DNA from: Methylocystaceae bacterium
GTDB taxonomy: Bacteria; Pseudomonadota; Alphaproteobacteria; Rhizobiales; Beijerinckiaceae
Reading direction: 5' to 3'
Assembly (NCBI GenBank): GCA_003152255.1
Contig: PLZT01000266.1
Span: 47,045 to 52,147, forward strand
DNA length: 5,103 nucleotides
This document shows, in pieces, positions 1-5,103 of this stretch (position 1 is the stretch's first letter; each line of letters starts with the position of its first letter). The position numbers and the translations under genes were made by a program. The notes below the pieces were generated by a model that saw only the letters and a program-made list of their open reading frames with translations, was not told where the DNA came from and ran no database searches.

Positions 1-90
1 GAAAAAATCATGCCGTTCGGCGAGAAGCTCGACGATGACGCGCCTTATTTCTCGATGGTGCTGGCGCCGGGCGCGGGACGGCGGCCATGA
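1..90 (+). CDS. cobI: CobI C-terminus, precorrin-2 C20-methyltransferase (partial)
   Basis: This is the last 29 codons of an open frame that enters from the left edge and stops at TGA 88-90. The translated tail contains EKIMPFGEKL, then DDDAPYFSMVLAP, then GAGRRP. The acidic stretch followed by APYFS and a hydrophobic strand ending in a Gly/Arg-rich tail is how precorrin-2 C20-methyltransferases (CobI/CbiL, SAM-dependent tetrapyrrole methylase fold) usually end. In the aerobic pathway CobI methylates C20 of precorrin-2 to give precorrin-3A in the cytoplasm. Its stop overlaps the cobJ start as ATGA, and cobI immediately before cobJ is a common order. The identification rests on a short tail plus context. 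The SAM-binding part is outside the window, so completeness cannot be judged. Confidence 0.85.
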   Translation, partial: EKIMPFGEKLDDDAPYFSMVLAPGAGRRP

Positions 91-848
91 CGGCGCGCCA
101 AGGCCGGCTGTATGTCGTTGGGCTCGGCCCTGGCGACGCGGGTTTTTTGACGCATGACGCCAGCGCCGCGCTGAAGGAGGCGGAAGATATTATCGGCTAC
201 GCGCCCTATGTCGCGCGCGTGCCGGAGCGCCCCGGCCAGACGCGGCTCGCCAGCGACAATCGCGTCGAGCTTGATCGGGCGCGCGAGGCGCTGTCGCGCG
301 CAGCGGCGGGGCGCGTTGTCGCGGTTGTTTCGGGCGGCGATCCCGGCGTGTTCGCGATGGCTTCCGCTGTGTTCGAGGCAATCGAGCAGGGCGAGCGGGA
401 CTGGCGCGATCTCGACATTCGCGTGCTGCCGGGAATCTCCGCGATGCAGGCGGCGGCGGCGCGGCTCGGCGCGCCGCTCGGCCATGACTTTTGCGTCATT
501 TCGCTGTCCGACAATCTCAAGCCTTGGGATGTGATAGCGGCGCGTCTCGAACACGCGGCGCGCGGCGATTTCGTCATCGCGTTATACAACCCGGCTTCTC
601 GCGCGCGACCGGGGCGCATTCACGACGCTTTCGCGATTTTGCGCGGCTTGCTCGAACCGGAAACCGTCGTCATCTTCGCCAAGTCGGTCGGGCGAGCGGA
701 AGAGAATATTTTGGTGACGCGGCTTGCCGAAGCCGATCCTTCGCAGGTCGACATGTCGACGCTGGTCATCGTCGGCGCTCGGGGCACGCGCGTGATCGCG
801 CGCGCGGCGGCGACGCCGTTCGTTTACACGTCGCGGAAGGCGCCATGA
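87..848 (+). CDS. cobJ: Precorrin-3B C17-methyltransferase
   Basis: This 253-residue protein is the usual length for CobJ/CbiH without extra domains. It is a cytoplasmic SAM-dependent tetrapyrrole methylase that methylates C17 of precorrin-3B and drives ring contraction to precorrin-4. Visible motifs are the N-terminal VGLGPGD loop (residues 11-17), GYAPYV (37-42), the SGGDPGVFAMAS methyltransferase signature (82-93), PGISAMQAAAARLGAPLGHDF (115-135), ISLSD (138-142), LYNPASRAR (166-174) and STLVIVG (224-230), all in the family order. The ATG at 87 overlaps the cobI stop (ATGA). No strong Shine-Dalgarno is present, only a weak GGGACGG, so coupling to cobI translation is likely. No C-terminal ferredoxin-like or nitrite-reductase domain is seen, so this is not the CbiH60-type fusion. 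The substrate must come from a CobG or CobZ encoded elsewhere. A T6 run lies at 143-148. Confidence 0.95.
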   Translation: MTARQGRLYVVGLGPGDAGFLTHDASAALKEAEDIIGYAPYVARVPERPGQTRLASDNRVELDRAREALSRAAAGRVVAVVSGGDPGVFAMASAVFEAIEQGERDWRDLDIRVLPGISAMQAAAARLGAPLGHDFCVISLSDNLKPWDVIAARLEHAARGDFVIALYNPASRARPGRIHDAFAILRGLLEPETVVIFAKSVGRAEENILVTRLAEADPSQVDMSTLVIVGARGTRVIARAAATPFVYTSRKAP

Positions 849-2065
849 ATCAATCGGCGCATGAACCGCGAGAGCGCTGGCTATCGTTGATCGGCATCGG
901 CGAGGACGGCGCGCTGTCGCCCGCGGCGCGCGCGCTGATCGAAGATGCGACGCTGATCGTCGGCGGCGCGCGTCATCTTTCGCTGATTGGCGCGACCACG
1001 GCGAGGCAAATGCAATGGCCTTCGCCGCTGACCGAGGCGATGGACGATATTTTGGCGCGGCGCAGCGAGCCAACCGTCGTGCTGGCTTCCGGCGATCCGT
1101 TTTTTTACGGCGTCGGCGAATTGATCGCGCGGCATATCGCGCCCGAGGAAATTTTTTGTCTCCCCAGTCCATCGGCTTTCGCGCTCGCCGCGGCGCGCCT
1201 GTGCTGGAGCCAACAGGATTGTGCGCTGCTGTCGCTGCATGGGCGCGCCTTCGAGCGCATCACGCCGCATTTGCGGCCGGGGCGGCGATTGCTGGTTCTC
1301 TCCTGGGACGGGACGACGCCCGGCCGCGCCGCCGCGCATCTCTCGCAACTGGGCTTTGGCGATTCGCGTCTGCATGTGCTCGAAAACCTCGGCGGACCCC
1401 GCGAGCTTGTTCGGTCGGCGCGCGCCGCGGATTTCGCTCTGGCCGACATCGGGCCGCTGAACACGCTGGCCATCGAACTGAAGGCTTCGCCGGGCGCGCG
1501 CGTCATTCCGCTGACGCCGGGTCTGCCGGACGATTGGTTCGAGCATGACGGGCAGATCACCAAGCGCGACATTCGCGCGGTGACGCTGGCCGCGCTCGCG
1601 CCACGCAACGGCGAGCTATTATGGGATATTGGCGCGGGCTCCGGCTCCATCGGCATTGAATGGATGCTGGCGGATGCCGCCAACCACGCCATCGCCATCG
1701 AATGCGACTGCGCGCGCGCGGCGCGCATCGCGCGCAACGCTCTGACCCTCGGCGTTCCCGGTCTCGACATTATCGCCGCGCGCGCGCCCGAAGGACTTGC
1801 TGGCCTCGCCACGCCCGACGCGATCTTCATCGGCGGCGGCGCCGATGCGCGCCTGCTCGACGCCGCGTGGGACGCGCTTCCTCGATTTGGCCGTCTCGTC
1901 GTCAACGCCGTGACGCTGCAAACACAGTCGCTGCTTGCCCAAGCTTTCGCGGCGCGCGGCGGCGAGCTGACGCATATCCAAATCGCCAAGGCCCGACCGG
2001 TGGGACGTTTTCATGCGCTGGACCCCGCGATGCCGGTGTTGCAATGGCGCGCGGTGAAACCATGA
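845..2065 (+). CDS. cobL: Precorrin-6B C5,15-methyltransferase (decarboxylating), CbiE-CbiT fusion
   Basis: This 406-residue protein is the normal size for the bifunctional CobL of the aerobic pathway. It methylates C5 and C15 and removes the C12 acetate carboxyl of precorrin-6B to give precorrin-8. The N-terminal CbiE-like domain (about 11-210) shows [10 protein letters not shown] (13-22), LIVGGARHL (37-45), the [12 protein letters not shown] signature (80-91), [16 protein letters not shown] (107-122) and SLHGR (130-134). The C-terminal CbiT-like Rossmann methyltransferase (about 224-404) has [20 protein letters not shown] (224-243), the SAM-binding loop [17 protein letters not shown] (258-274), acidic E286 and D288 at the next strand, and PDAIFIGGG (324-332). 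The frame is open far upstream inside cobJ. I chose the ATG at 845 because it forms an ATGA overlap with the cobJ stop, has GGAAGG at 835-840, and places the CbiE motif at the usual distance. A T7 run lies in the conserved PFFY codons (1100-1106). Confidence 0.96.
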
Positions 2066-2463
2066 GCGCGCATTACGCCATTGGCATAGGCGCGCGCAGG
2101 GACATCGACGCGCGAGAGTTGGCGGGTTTCGTGCGCGATGTCGCGGCGCGACATGGCGTCGATCTTCAATCCGCGACGCTCGCGACGATAGAGGCGCGGG
2201 GCGACGAGCCCGGCCTTCGCGACGCCGCGCGATTGCTCGATATGGGCGTGGTCTTTCTGTCGCTCGAAAATTTGCGCGCGCGCGACAAGGATGTGCCGAC
2301 TCGCTCCGCTCGCGTCGAAGAAATGTTTGGCGTTGGCAGCGTGGCGGAGGCGGCGGCGCTCGCGGGGGCTGGCTCGGGGAGCATTTTGCTCGCGCCGCGC
2401 GTCGCGACGACGCGGCTCGCCTGCGCGATCGCCCGCGCGAAGGATGGAGGCGAAAGCCCATGA
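2062..2463 (+). CDS. cobE: Cobalamin biosynthesis protein CobE (CbiG C-terminal domain family)
   Basis: This small cytoplasmic protein of 133 residues matches stand-alone CobE, which corresponds to the C-terminal domain of CbiG. In anaerobic organisms CbiG opens the ring-A lactone. In the aerobic pathway the exact role of CobE is not settled, and I do not assign a reaction. Visible signatures are the N-terminal [11 protein letters not shown] (6-16), [12 protein letters not shown] (63-74, the usual FS.E.L position), [35 protein letters not shown] (first to last about 78-112, conserved GVGSVAE core) and TRLACAIAR (115-123). The family normally has GIGCRRG at the N-terminus. Here the Cys is Ala (A11) and the Gly after RR is Asp (D14). 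ATG 2062 overlaps the cobL stop (ATGA) and only a weak GGTGA precedes it, so translation probably depends on cobL. Its position between cobL and cobM supports the call. Confidence 0.85.
2446..2450 (+). promoter_or_regulatory. Shine-Dalgarno of cobM
   Basis: GGAGG lies nine bases before the cobM ATG, inside the last codons of cobE. It is the only near-perfect ribosome-binding site within the cob block; the other overlapping starts have weaker G/A-rich stretches. It confirms ATG 2460 as the start and suggests cobM is translated more independently than its neighbours. Confidence 0.75.
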
Positions 2464-3233
2464 CCGTGCATTTCATCGGGGCCGGCCCCGGCGCCGCCGA
2501 TCTTCTCACGCTGCGCGGACGCGATCTCATCGCGCGATGCCCGGTCTGTCTCTATGCCGGGTCACTGGTGCCGGTCGGCGTGTTGCAACATTGCCCGCCG
2601 GGCGCGCGCATCGTCGACACCGCGCCGCTGTCGCTCGACGCGATCATCGCGGAAATGCAAGCGGCTGAAGACGCCGGCCTCGACGTCGCGCGCCTGCATT
2701 CGGGCGACCTTTCGATCTGGAGCGCGGTCGGCGAGCAGACGCGCCGGCTGGAGCGGCTGAAAATTCCGTTCACCTTGACGCCGGGCGTGCCCTCCTTCGC
2801 CGCCGCGGCGGCCGCGCTCGGGCGGGAACTGACCCTGCCGGAGGTCGCGCAATCGCTGGTGCTGACGCGCACGAGCGGGCGCGCCTCGGCGATGCCGTTG
2901 AGCGAGAGCTTGAGCGCCTTCGCCGCGACGCGCGCCACGATGGCGATACATCTCTCTATCCACGCCCTTGCGCGCGTCGTCGGCGAGCTGACGCCCTTTT
3001 ATGGCGACGAATGCCCGATCGCGCTGGTCTATCGCGCTTCCTGGCCCGACGAGCGCATCGTCCGCGGCACGCTCGCGACCATCGAACAACTCGCCGGCGA
3101 GGCGCCGATGGAGCGCACGGCGCTGATTCTCGTCGGACCGGCGCTCGGCGCGCAGGATTTTCGCGAAAGCGCGCTTTATGACGCGGGTTATGATCGGCGC
3201 TTTCGTCCGCGCGGCGGCGGAGAGCCGGCGTGA
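2460..3233 (+). CDS. cobM: Precorrin-4 C11-methyltransferase
   Basis: This 257-residue protein is the typical length for CobM/CbiF. It is a cytoplasmic SAM-dependent methylase that methylates C11 of precorrin-4 to give precorrin-5. Motifs in order are [18 protein letters not shown] (3-20), [12 protein letters not shown] (27-38), the [15 protein letters not shown] signature (79-93), [18 protein letters not shown] (107-124) with [18 protein letters not shown] (126-143), AIHLSIH (162-168), [15 protein letters not shown] (191-205) and a SALYD...Y.RRFRPR tail (237-251). All are diagnostic of this subfamily as opposed to CobI, CobJ or CobA. The start ATG at 2460 overlaps the cobE stop (ATGA). It carries the clearest Shine-Dalgarno of the operon, GGAGG at 2446-2450, nine bases upstream. 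It may therefore initiate partly independently of cobE. Confidence 0.96.
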
Positions 3234-4537
3234 CCGCCCGCGGCCTTTTGATCGCCGCCGTGCGCTCTGGCAGCGGCAAGACAACGCTGGCGCTCGGGCT
3301 GATGCGCGCCTTGGCGCGGCGCGGGATGCGCGTCGGCGCCGCCAAATGCGGGCCGGATTATATCGATCCCGCATTTCACAAGGCGGCCACGGGCCGGGAA
3401 AGCCTCAATCTCGATAGCTGGACGATGGACGAAGGCCTGATCGCGGGTCTCGCCGCGCGCGCCGGCCGCGACGCCGACATCATTATCGCGGAGGCGTCGA
3501 TGGGACTGTTCGACGGCGCCCCCAACGCGCCCAGCCGCACCGGCGCCTCGGCCGACATCGCCGCCGCGACCGGCTGGCCGGTGGTGGTGATCCACGATGT
3601 ATCGGGACAGGCGCAGACCGCGGCCGCGGTTTTGCGCGGCGTCGCGGCCCATGACGCGCGCTTGGAAATAGCGGGCGTTGTGCTGAACAAGGTCGGTTCG
3701 GAGCGCCATCGCCGGCTGGCCAGAGACGCGATCGAGGCGATCGGACTGACGGTTTTCGGCGCCTTGCCGCGCGACGCGGGCGTGATCTTGCCGGAACGCC
3801 ATCTCGGACTGGTGCAGGCGCGCGAGACCGAAGGATTGGACAAAATACTGGACGCCCTGGCCGACAGGGTCGAAGCCCATGTCGATTTGGCCGCGCTATG
3901 CGCCCGCGCGGGCGGCGCTGAATTGGCGGCGCGAAGTGGGTCCATCGCGGGCTTGAGGCCGCCGGGCCAACGCATCGCCGTGGCGCGCGACGACGCTTTT
4001 TCGTTTTTTTATCCGCATCTTGCGTTGAGTTGGCGGGAGGCTGGGGCGGAACTCAAGTTTTTCTCGCCGCTCGCCGACGAGCCGCCGCCGGCCGATTGCG
4101 ACATATGCTGGCTGCCGGGCGGCTATCCCGAATTGCATGCGGGCCGCATAGCCAGCGCGGCGGGGTTTCTGGGCGGCCTGCGGCGCTTCGCCGAAAGCCG
4201 GCCGGTGCATGGCGAGTGCGGCGGCTATATGACGCTCGGGCAGGCGCTGACCGGCGCCGATGGCCAGGTTCACGCGATGGCGGGGCTGTTGCGATTGGAG
4301 ACGAGCTTTTCGCAGCGCAAACTGCGTCTCGGCTACCGCGACGCCGCGCTCGCGGCGGATCACTGTCTGGGGCCGGCGGGGACGCGACTGCGCGGTCACG
4401 AATTCCATTACGCGACGGTGTTGCGGGAGGAAGGCGCATGTTTCGCGATGGTTCGCGACGCTTATGACGAAACGAAGATGGCTTGCGGCTTACGCGCGGG
4501 CGGCGTTTCCGGCTCGTTTTTTCATGTGATCGCATAA
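3230..4537 (+). CDS. cobB: Cobyrinic / hydrogenobyrinic acid a,c-diamide synthase
   Basis: This 435-residue enzyme has the two-domain CbiA/CobB architecture. An N-terminal MinD/dethiobiotin-synthetase-like ATPase has the P-loop RSGSGKTT (12-19), KCGPDYIDP (39-47), LDSW (61-64), EASMGLFDG (88-96), LNKVGSERH (152-160) and LPERHLGL (187-194). A C-terminal class-I glutamine amidotransferase domain has DAFSFFYP (255-262), [11 protein letters not shown] (294-304), HGECGGYM (327-334, likely nucleophile Cys330), RGHEFHY (388-394) and a final SGSFFH (427-432). It uses ATP and glutamine to amidate the a and c side chains of (hydrogeno)byrinic acid. Given the aerobic neighbours, the metal-free hydrogenobyrinic acid is the more likely substrate (inference). 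The start is GTG 3230, overlapping the cobM stop as GTGA, with GGAGAG at 3219-3224. No earlier ATG keeps the P-loop in place. It is the last gene of the block. T-runs at 3997-4001, 4004-4010 and 4517-4522 encode Phe codons. Confidence 0.96.
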
Positions 4538-4626
4538 AAAAAGGGCCGCCGGAAGACCAGCGGCCCAAGTCAAGGGAGGAAACGCCCAAGGAGGGCTACG
4601 AAGCAAGAGCAATCTCGCTGCGATGC
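4536..4626 (-). ncRNA. Candidate small RNA with anti-Shine-Dalgarno motifs
   Basis: Read on the minus strand, this roughly 90-base segment follows a sigma70-like promoter and ends in a strong intrinsic terminator, with no open frame of note between them. From the predicted 5' end near 4623-4626 the RNA has a weak GAG-AUUG-CUC hairpin. Next comes a perfect 4-bp hairpin, GCCC (4596-4593), loop UCCUU (4592-4588), GGGC (4587-4584), which presents CCUCCUU, the same core as the 16S rRNA anti-Shine-Dalgarno. A U-rich single-stranded stretch follows with a second motif, CCUCCC (4579-4574). The terminator hairpin and seven Us complete it. Layout, size and repeated CCUCC motifs resemble known alphaproteobacterial trans-acting RNAs that pair with ribosome-binding sites, such as alpha-r14/NfeR1 and the CCUCCUCCC-motif 'cuckoo' RNAs. 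Membership of a named family is not shown. The exact 5' end is inferred. The 3' end abuts cobB convergently. The RNA is probably expressed independently of the cob operon. Confidence 0.68.
4543..4566 (-). terminator. Intrinsic terminator of the minus-strand small RNA
   Basis: In the minus-strand RNA the stem GGGCCGC-U-GG (4566-4557) pairs with CC-G-GCGGCCC (4552-4543) around a UCUU tetraloop, giving ten continuous base pairs including one U-G wobble. Seven Us follow directly (4542-4536). On the plus strand the wobble becomes a C-A mismatch (4550/4559) and no T-run follows the stem, only AAGTC. The element is therefore built for minus-strand transcripts. The hairpin may still slow or protect the 3' end of the cob mRNA, since it starts five bases after the cobB stop. 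The T-run overlaps the last two bases of the cobB TAA. Confidence 0.82.
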
Positions 4627-4649
4627 ACTCTGTATAATGTTGCATCGCA
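4619..4649. repeat. Paired TGC-N3-GCA inverted repeat, possible operator
   Basis: TGCGATGCA (4619-4627) and TGCATCGCA (4641-4649) form a perfect 9-bp inverted repeat with a 13-base spacer. Each arm is itself a TGC-N3-GCA dyad, so the structure can equally be read as two operator sites with centres 22 bp apart, about two helical turns. One site lies within the spacer between the -35 and -10 boxes of the minus-strand promoter and the other covers the predicted transcription start. Such placement would suit a repressor. TGC-rich dyads of this kind have been reported for the polyhydroxyalkanoate regulator PhaR, but assigning any regulator here is speculation. It is not a terminator for the plus strand, because the T8 run begins 12 bases after the repeat. 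Confidence 0.5.
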
Positions 4650-4659
4650 CAACAGTCAA
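4631..4659 (-). promoter_or_regulatory. Sigma70-type promoter of the small RNA
   Basis: On the minus strand TTGACT (4659-4654, five of six consensus bases, preceded by CC as in many alphaproteobacterial CTTGAC boxes) is followed by a 17-base spacer (4653-4637). Then comes TATACA (4636-4631, four of six). An A8 run at 4669-4662 lies directly upstream and could act as an UP-like element. Predicted initiation is at about 4626-4623. The downstream intrinsic terminator at the right distance is independent support. The -10 box is imperfect, so strength cannot be judged. Confidence 0.62.
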
Positions 4660-4669
4660 GGTTTTTTTT

Positions 4670-5053
4670 GAGTTTGGCCCGCCGGGAGCCGCGACCAAGC
4701 GTCGCCAATCAGATTTGCATTTTTGAACAAATGATTAGCGATAATACCGCGACGCCGATGGCGACGGTTATGCCCGGCGCCGGCCGGGTTGACAAGAGTC
4801 AAATTTGCGAAAAATCAAGCGACCTCGAATCAGGCGGGGCGCGTGCTCGAATCGACGAACGCGCCGCTCGGCGCCGCCAGCGGAAGCGGCCATTGTCGCG
4901 ACAGGGCTTTGCACCGCGCGCGCGCGTGGTCTAAAACGCTTGTCAACGTATTTTCGCCGTGTTGGACGCCGGTTCGGGCGAGGGAAAATTCGAAGAAAAT
5001 AGCATCGGCGCCGCTTCTGTCGCACCGGACGGGAAAGCGCCCTACGCCAAGCC
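4670..5053. other. Intergenic spacer without a convincing gene
   Basis: No open frame in this stretch has a plausible start, ribosome-binding site and codon pattern; the short frames present look like chance in GC-rich DNA. It contains an AT-rich patch (about 4707-4750) with an imperfect inverted repeat. It also has TTGAC-AAGA-GTCAA (4789-4802), a TGTCGCGACA palindrome (4894-4903) and a CG-alternating run (about 4914-4926). TTGACA at 4789-4794 is a perfect -35 hexamer, but only a poor -10 (AAATCA, 4812-4817) follows at 17 bases. The promoter of the gene starting at 5063 is presumably here but I cannot place it. I see no B12-box (cobalamin riboswitch core) in it. Confidence 0.55.
4707..4736. 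repeat. Imperfect AT-rich inverted repeat
   Basis: AATCA-GA-TTTG (4707-4717) faces CAAATGATT (4728-4736) across a ten-base spacer. The arms match over nine positions if the two extra bases GA in the left arm are bulged. It stands in an AT-rich patch unlike the surrounding GC-rich DNA. It could be a protein-binding site or a chance dyad; no T-run follows, so it is not an intrinsic terminator. Confidence 0.3.
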
Positions 5054-5059
5054 GAGGAA
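5054..5059 (+). promoter_or_regulatory. Ribosome-binding site of the gene at 5063
   Basis: GAGGAA ends three bases before ATG 5063. It is purine-rich and matches the anti-Shine-Dalgarno core, which supports that ATG as the true start of the partial gene. The gap is slightly short but usable. Confidence 0.7.
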
Positions 5060-5062
5060 CCG

Positions 5063-5103
5063 ATGGCCGCCATTCCCGACTTCACCAAGATTCCCTTCGC
5101 TCC
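5063..5103 (+). CDS. Start of an unidentified protein, possibly methylmalonyl-CoA mutase (partial)
   Basis: Thirteen codons are present before the window ends, encoding MAAIPDFTKIPFA, with a partial codon (CC) that would give Pro. The frame is open, begins at an ATG with GAGGAA just upstream, and has G/C third positions as in the cob genes. The pattern M-x-x-IPDFTKIPF recalls the short N-terminal extension of alphaproteobacterial methylmalonyl-CoA mutase, an adenosylcobalamin-dependent enzyme. That would fit a neighbourhood of B12 synthesis. This is recollection of a family pattern from a very short fragment. A phasin or another protein with a similar leader remains possible. The diagnostic regions (TIM barrel, and the B12-binding DxHxxG motif if it is the large subunit) lie outside the window. 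Confidence 0.45.
   Translation, partial: MAAIPDFTKIPFA

Follow-up and report, generated by a model that had tools for sequence, protein, structure and literature searches.

What, if anything, is encoded opposite the cobalamin genes at the 3′ end of cobB in a Methylocystaceae bacterium? The window, meaning the whole stretch of 5,103 nucleotides that was analyzed, carries on its plus strand (87–4537) a cobalamin cluster with three tetrapyrrole methylases, a protein with a CbiG C-terminal domain (133 aa), and cobB. One of the methylases forms the N-terminal half of a longer protein (406 aa). The cobB gene (3230–4537, plus strand; cobyrinate a,c-diamide synthase type, with GATase_3 and CbiA domains) is convergent with the element described below. 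The next plus-strand gene starts at the end of the window (5064–5103, MAAIPDFTKIPF). Its counterpart at the related locus L008 (4836–7010) encodes a B12-dependent methylmalonyl-CoA mutase, and at L003, L005, L006, L007, and L038 it is replaced by a minus-strand open reading frame starting MTAENLAKHRLDPNI.

A Small RNA Gene on the Minus Strand

A sequence-only reading of the window had placed a small RNA gene opposite to all protein genes, with a promoter, a non-coding transcript of roughly 90 nt, and a terminator ending in seven U residues. A minus-strand small RNA gene with these parts, adjoining cobB, is confirmed. The cob genes all lie on the plus strand, and the minus strand carries TTGACT as −35 element (4654–4659) and TATACA as −10 element (4631–4636), separated by 17 nt; both are aligned in relatives, which keep promoter, transcript, and terminator. 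The A8 tract reported upstream of the promoter is present (4669–4662, minus strand, 5′ of the −35 element) and is absent from some relatives in an alignment of 13 sequences. Placing the start about 7 nt past the −10 element, we infer an RNA of ~89 nt (4536–4624, minus strand). It ends in an intrinsic terminator (4536–4566), recognized in the sequence, the fold, and the family model described below, with a stem of 10 pairs (4566–4543) followed by seven T at 4542–4536 on the minus strand.

An automatic scan of 4000–5103 called zero promoters; its rule requires the −10 element to end in T, and TATACA ends in A. For the terminator scan 1.6 chance matches are expected, and neither scan amounts to proof. 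A plasmid search with a 401-base query returned 12 records with partial matches only, none covering 80% of the query, and no cobB relative was found on viral contigs.

Assignment to the Alpha-r8 Family

The RNA is a member of the known alpha-r8/MmgR family, which has been linked to storage of the bioplastic PHB. In an Rfam scan, RF00519 (suhB; described as mmgR) matched 4528–4603 of the minus strand with 68.9 bits (E 3.1e-13; cut-off 41 bits), spanning model positions 1–77 of 77. No other listed family exceeded its cut-off in the window, where one lower-scoring overlapping clan match was unnamed. SorY, sbrA, and Enterococcus-1 overlap the same RNA with scores far under their cut-offs and were rejected. 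Alpha-r8 RNAs are defined by a weak hairpin followed by UUUCCUCCCU in single-stranded form (PMC12559287), an arrangement found in the sequence and fold of the window RNA together with a Rho-independent terminator, the latter recognized by sequence pattern only.

The segment 4536–4625 folds at −40.2 kcal/mol (z −4.88), and 0 of 200 shuffles were equally stable. Along the minus strand the fold comprises a 5′ stem-loop (4599–4622), the weak hairpin GCCC-UCCUU-GGGC (4584–4596), a single-stranded stretch with the anti-Shine-Dalgarno 10-mer (4573–4582) that is the alpha-r8 seed, and the terminator. Two anti-Shine-Dalgarno stretches had been proposed from the letters of the window. CCUCCC is indeed single-stranded in the predicted fold; of CCUCCUU, said to occupy a hairpin loop, UCCUU forms the loop but the leading CC is paired in the stem.

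MmgR of Sinorhizobium meliloti has the family model, the 10-mer, and the terminator in common with the window RNA, which differs in adjoining cobB. In SisA-D of Caulobacter crescentus, also alpha-r8 RNAs, the seed likewise follows a weak hairpin and a terminator is present (PMC12559287).

Occurrence and Conservation in Relatives

Eighteen loci, drawn from 80 cobB loci, were scanned for Rfam families, and RF00519 exceeded its cut-off in 12. The RNA lies at the cobB 3′ end in ten of the 18 (L001–L009 and L038), and 1.0 and 0.6 kb from cobB in L014 and L016, respectively; it was not found in the scanned stretch of L010, L011, L012, L013, L021, and L022. The ten cobB-linked records comprise six Methylocystis, one Methylosinus, two Methylocystaceae, and one named to class only. 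Among the 80 loci, the cobB nearest to that of the window belongs to L008, from a Methylocystaceae bog MAG (93% identical). Genome-wide, RF00519 was matched in 11 of 12 genomes searched one by one. Of the 149 genomes in the GTDB family to which Methylocystis sp. B8 belongs, 146 had a match and 143 had one that exceeded the cut-off; for the 289 genomes of the class, the corresponding figures were 159 and 126. Most species are said to have one alpha-r8 copy next to a gene for N-formylglutamate amidohydrolase and additional copies at other places (PMC12559287). The position at cobB is thus a different locus, and we did not count the neighboring gene as defining.

One locus, L011 (4371–4490; a Methylocystis MAG), keeps the promoter and both of the operator-like boxes described below at the cobB 3′ end, and no alpha-r8 body follows. 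The match to its cobB stops at residue 421 of 435, and RF00519 was not found in the 2.1 Mb genome; the missing RNA body may reflect either natural loss or an assembly error.

Alignment of the same spacer from relatives, proposed earlier as a check, bears out the promoter, seed, hairpins, and terminator, and gives modest compensating change. From the weak hairpin through the terminator the 13 aligned sequences hardly vary, and the DNA above the promoter is divergent. Among the 12 distinct rows, three pairs of the 5′ stem show changes of both partners, in a single sequence each, and 97.4% of cells pair versus 38–56% with slid partners; because a slide by −3 likewise gives three double-change pairs, the covariation is modest.

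For the wider family we took 110 loci, the best-scoring among the matches listed, all 110 of which contain UUUCCUCCCU. A strict filter dropped 23 of them, and a relaxed filter dropped two (L215 and L230), leaving 107 distinct upstream sequences. In these 107 best-scoring copies among the matches listed, the 5′ stem has at least 7 pairs in 106, with a median of −16.6 kcal/mol versus −9.6 kcal/mol for shuffles. A control stretch farther upstream also often reaches at least 7 pairs (81/107; median −6.7 kcal/mol), so the stem energy is more telling than the pair count. Among the same 107 best-scoring copies, the loop of the weak hairpin is UCCUU 77 times and UUCUU 26 times; the first CCUCC, one of the motifs noted in the sequence-only reading, is thus common but not fixed.

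Two PhaR-Like Boxes in the Promoter

The −10 element of the window RNA lies between two YGCRNYGCR palindromes, set 22 bp from each other (close to two turns of the helix). Box 1 (TGCGATGCA on the minus strand, 4641–4649) lies between −35 and −10, and box 2 (TGCATCGCA on the minus strand, 4619–4627) lies over the predicted start. In S. meliloti the PhaR (AniA) motif is WNWD2NYGCRNYGCRNH2WNW, PhaR retarded a fragment of the mmgR promoter in EMSA, and the shifts were lost when the palindromes were altered or omitted (PMC12542648). There, according to a review, mmgR is repressed by AniA and activated by NtrC via a conserved dyad in the −35/−10 spacer (PMC8401924). Box 1 has the same placement and thus corresponds to the known site. 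Box 2 is an extra palindrome, compared with the one PhaR site given for mmgR in the table of PMC12542648. With YGCRNYGCR in the promoter as the mark of the PhaR (AniA) regulon, the window has two such boxes.

Among the 13 aligned loci, box 1 keeps TGC-N3-GCA in all 13, with variable middle bases. Box 2 keeps TGC-N3-GCA in 10 and YGCRNYGCR in 11, and is absent from L014 and L016. The boxes are 21–22 bp apart at the cobB-linked loci that have both.

The layout extends to the family. Among the 107 upstream sequences, which belong to the best-scoring of the matches listed, 103 have a box (lacking at L113, L119, L175, and L182) and 57 have two boxes 18–23 bp apart, counts that are not independent events, since related genomes were counted separately. 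Spacings in this best-scoring set are mainly 21 (34 pairs) or 19 (19 pairs). In the strict-filter set, likewise the best-scoring among the matches listed, 83 of 86 sequences have a box and 47 a pair. Both controls were run on these 86: shuffles gave a box in 15.8% and a pair in 0.17%, and 593 flanking windows gave a box in 11.6% and no pair. At class level (27 loci, with L284 left out), a box is present in 21 of 26 loci and a pair in nine. A spacing of 20 is nearly missing from L102–L131 and L171–L250 (one pair, among the best-scoring matches listed); three class-level copies have it. The upstream regions of Caulobacter sisA-D are described in the available text of PMC12559287 as lacking a common motif, in contrast to the PhaR-like boxes of the window RNA and its relatives.

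In the literature found, judged mostly by titles and the opening of abstracts, we met no description of a two-box alpha-r8 promoter or of a Methylocystis alpha-r8 RNA. Within that literature, PhaR control of an alpha-r8 RNA is shown for S. meliloti only, and for Methylorubrum it is raised merely as a possibility (PMC6520949). The paired boxes offer a specific, testable arrangement of operators for alpha-r8 genes.

Shared Boxes at Phasin Genes

The YGCRNYGCR box of the RNA promoter is common to PhaR (AniA) operators at phasin genes, and a PhaR gene is present in all nine relatives searched. From 51 phasin matches listed we took 30 loci, of which 27 had an accepted start (L154, L158, and L161 were dropped). 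A box occurs at 25 of these 27 phasin genes of the nine relatives (lacking at L146 and L157) versus 71 of 295 control windows, and two boxes 28–33 bp apart occur at 14 of the 27 versus one of the 295. Judged by eye, the phasin pairs surround a TTGAC-like −35 element, whereas those of the cobB-linked RNA genes that have both boxes, 21–22 bp apart, flank the −10. Since PhaR-type boxes stand at both the phasin genes and the RNA gene and PhaR is encoded in 9/9 relatives, phasins and the window RNA are very probably under the same regulator, PhaR.

Direct targeting of phasin mRNAs gained no support from a crude pairing test, in which predicted pairing with the RNA was no stronger for 24 phasin start regions than for 131 control ORF starts (medians −17.95 vs. 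−19.2 kcal/mol, p 0.86). The control starts come from a crude ORF call, and this negative result is compatible with phasin targeting.

Proposed Function and Alternatives

The window likely encodes an alpha-r8 trans-acting RNA of a Methylocystis-like methanotroph, repressed by PhaR, released by PHB, and blocking Shine-Dalgarno regions. We infer its transcription, PhaR binding, PHB response, and targets as follows. PhaR, a PHB-sensing repressor, would occupy both palindromes flanking the −10 element and block RNA polymerase. When PHB granules form, PhaR would be drawn off the DNA, as it leaves its promoter for PHB granules in the system described in PMC3079617, and the RNA would be made. The single-stranded UUUCCUCCCU would then base-pair to several mRNAs at their Shine-Dalgarno regions and halt their translation, with feedback on carbon storage. 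By analogy with its relatives, we expect the RNA to silence several mRNAs at the level of translation after PHB has removed PhaR. SisA pairs via the 10-mer upstream of the start codon and represses, and many-mRNA repression is shown for this relative of the window RNA (PMC12559287); both SisA and MmgR associate with Hfq (PMC12559287, PMC8401924). Deletion of the MmgR core raises PHB and phasin proteins and leaves phasin mRNA unchanged (PMC8401924), and the available text of PMC12559287 describes direct pairing of MmgR as not identified.

Other readings of the locus have to be weighed. The sequence-only reading had likened the RNA to the alpha-r14/NfeR1 or cuckoo type and had suggested a covariance-model search. 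Its two C-rich, anti-Shine-Dalgarno-like stretches do recall NfeR1/alpha-r14 (RF02344), which has such a stretch. Alpha-r14 RNAs, however, have three hairpins that each bear CCUCCUCCC (PMC10746234), a motif absent from the window RNA. RF02344 is unlisted in the Rfam scan of the window, has no listed match at the cobB-linked RNA, and exceeds its 58.8-bit cut-off in none of nine related genomes (best 28.8 bits; sub-threshold matches in seven, E up to 1, all elsewhere). The covariance search thus did find an Rfam family, but this was RF00519, matched at full length beside the unnamed clan match, and not ar14; we regard an alpha-r14 or cuckoo-type identity as extremely improbable. A mainly local role, as antisense or collision partner of the 3′ end of the cob operon rather than in trans, draws on the arrangement of the two genes. 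The ends of RNA and cobB overlap by 1–3 nt in the window and in eight of ten loci (the cobB stop overlaps the U tract by 2 nt in the window; the overlap is 20 nt in L002, and L004 has a 19-nt gap). The terminator scan found no plus-strand terminator-like site in 4000–5103, so read-through from the cob genes, antisense to the RNA, is possible. Yet the overlap is merely a few bases, and the alpha-r8 family works in trans elsewhere, with most copies at other places (PMC12559287), so that a local main role appears most improbable.

If the RNA is of alpha-r8 type, the palindromes could still serve NtrC or another protein, making the tie to PHB indirect. NtrC also controls S. meliloti mmgR (PMC8401924), and the promoters of the Caulobacter siblings are unrelated (PMC12559287). 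The boxes nevertheless conform to YGCRNYGCR, the motif of PhaR, and are found again at phasin promoters in nine relatives, each with PhaR, and we consider control by another protein unlikely. A decayed or silent copy that has lost transcription would agree with the transcript map of Methylosinus sporium 5, which in its main text names EcpR1 and alpha-r45 and not suhB/mmgR (PMC12403871), and with L011, where promoter and boxes persist without the RNA body and without RF00519 in the genome. Against this, the window and ten loci keep promoter, seed, hairpins, and terminator below divergent DNA, and a silent copy seems very improbable.

The PhaR-repressed, trans-acting alpha-r8 RNA remains the preferred reading. 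Type II methanotrophs are used for PHB production from methane, and a conserved RNA under the regulator of the phasins would, if true, constitute a second layer of control in these organisms. A bolder proposal, which we hold to be doubtful, is that two-operator PhaR control of alpha-r8 RNAs could be an old core PHB-translation switch across much of Alphaproteobacteria, to which Methylocystaceae might have added a B12 link through cob read-through RNA that is antisense to the small RNA over its whole length and soaks it up. As a separate observation, the alpha-r8 family is expanded in some genomes, with 14, 12, 12, and 10 RF00519 matches in G025, G066, G143, and G119, respectively.
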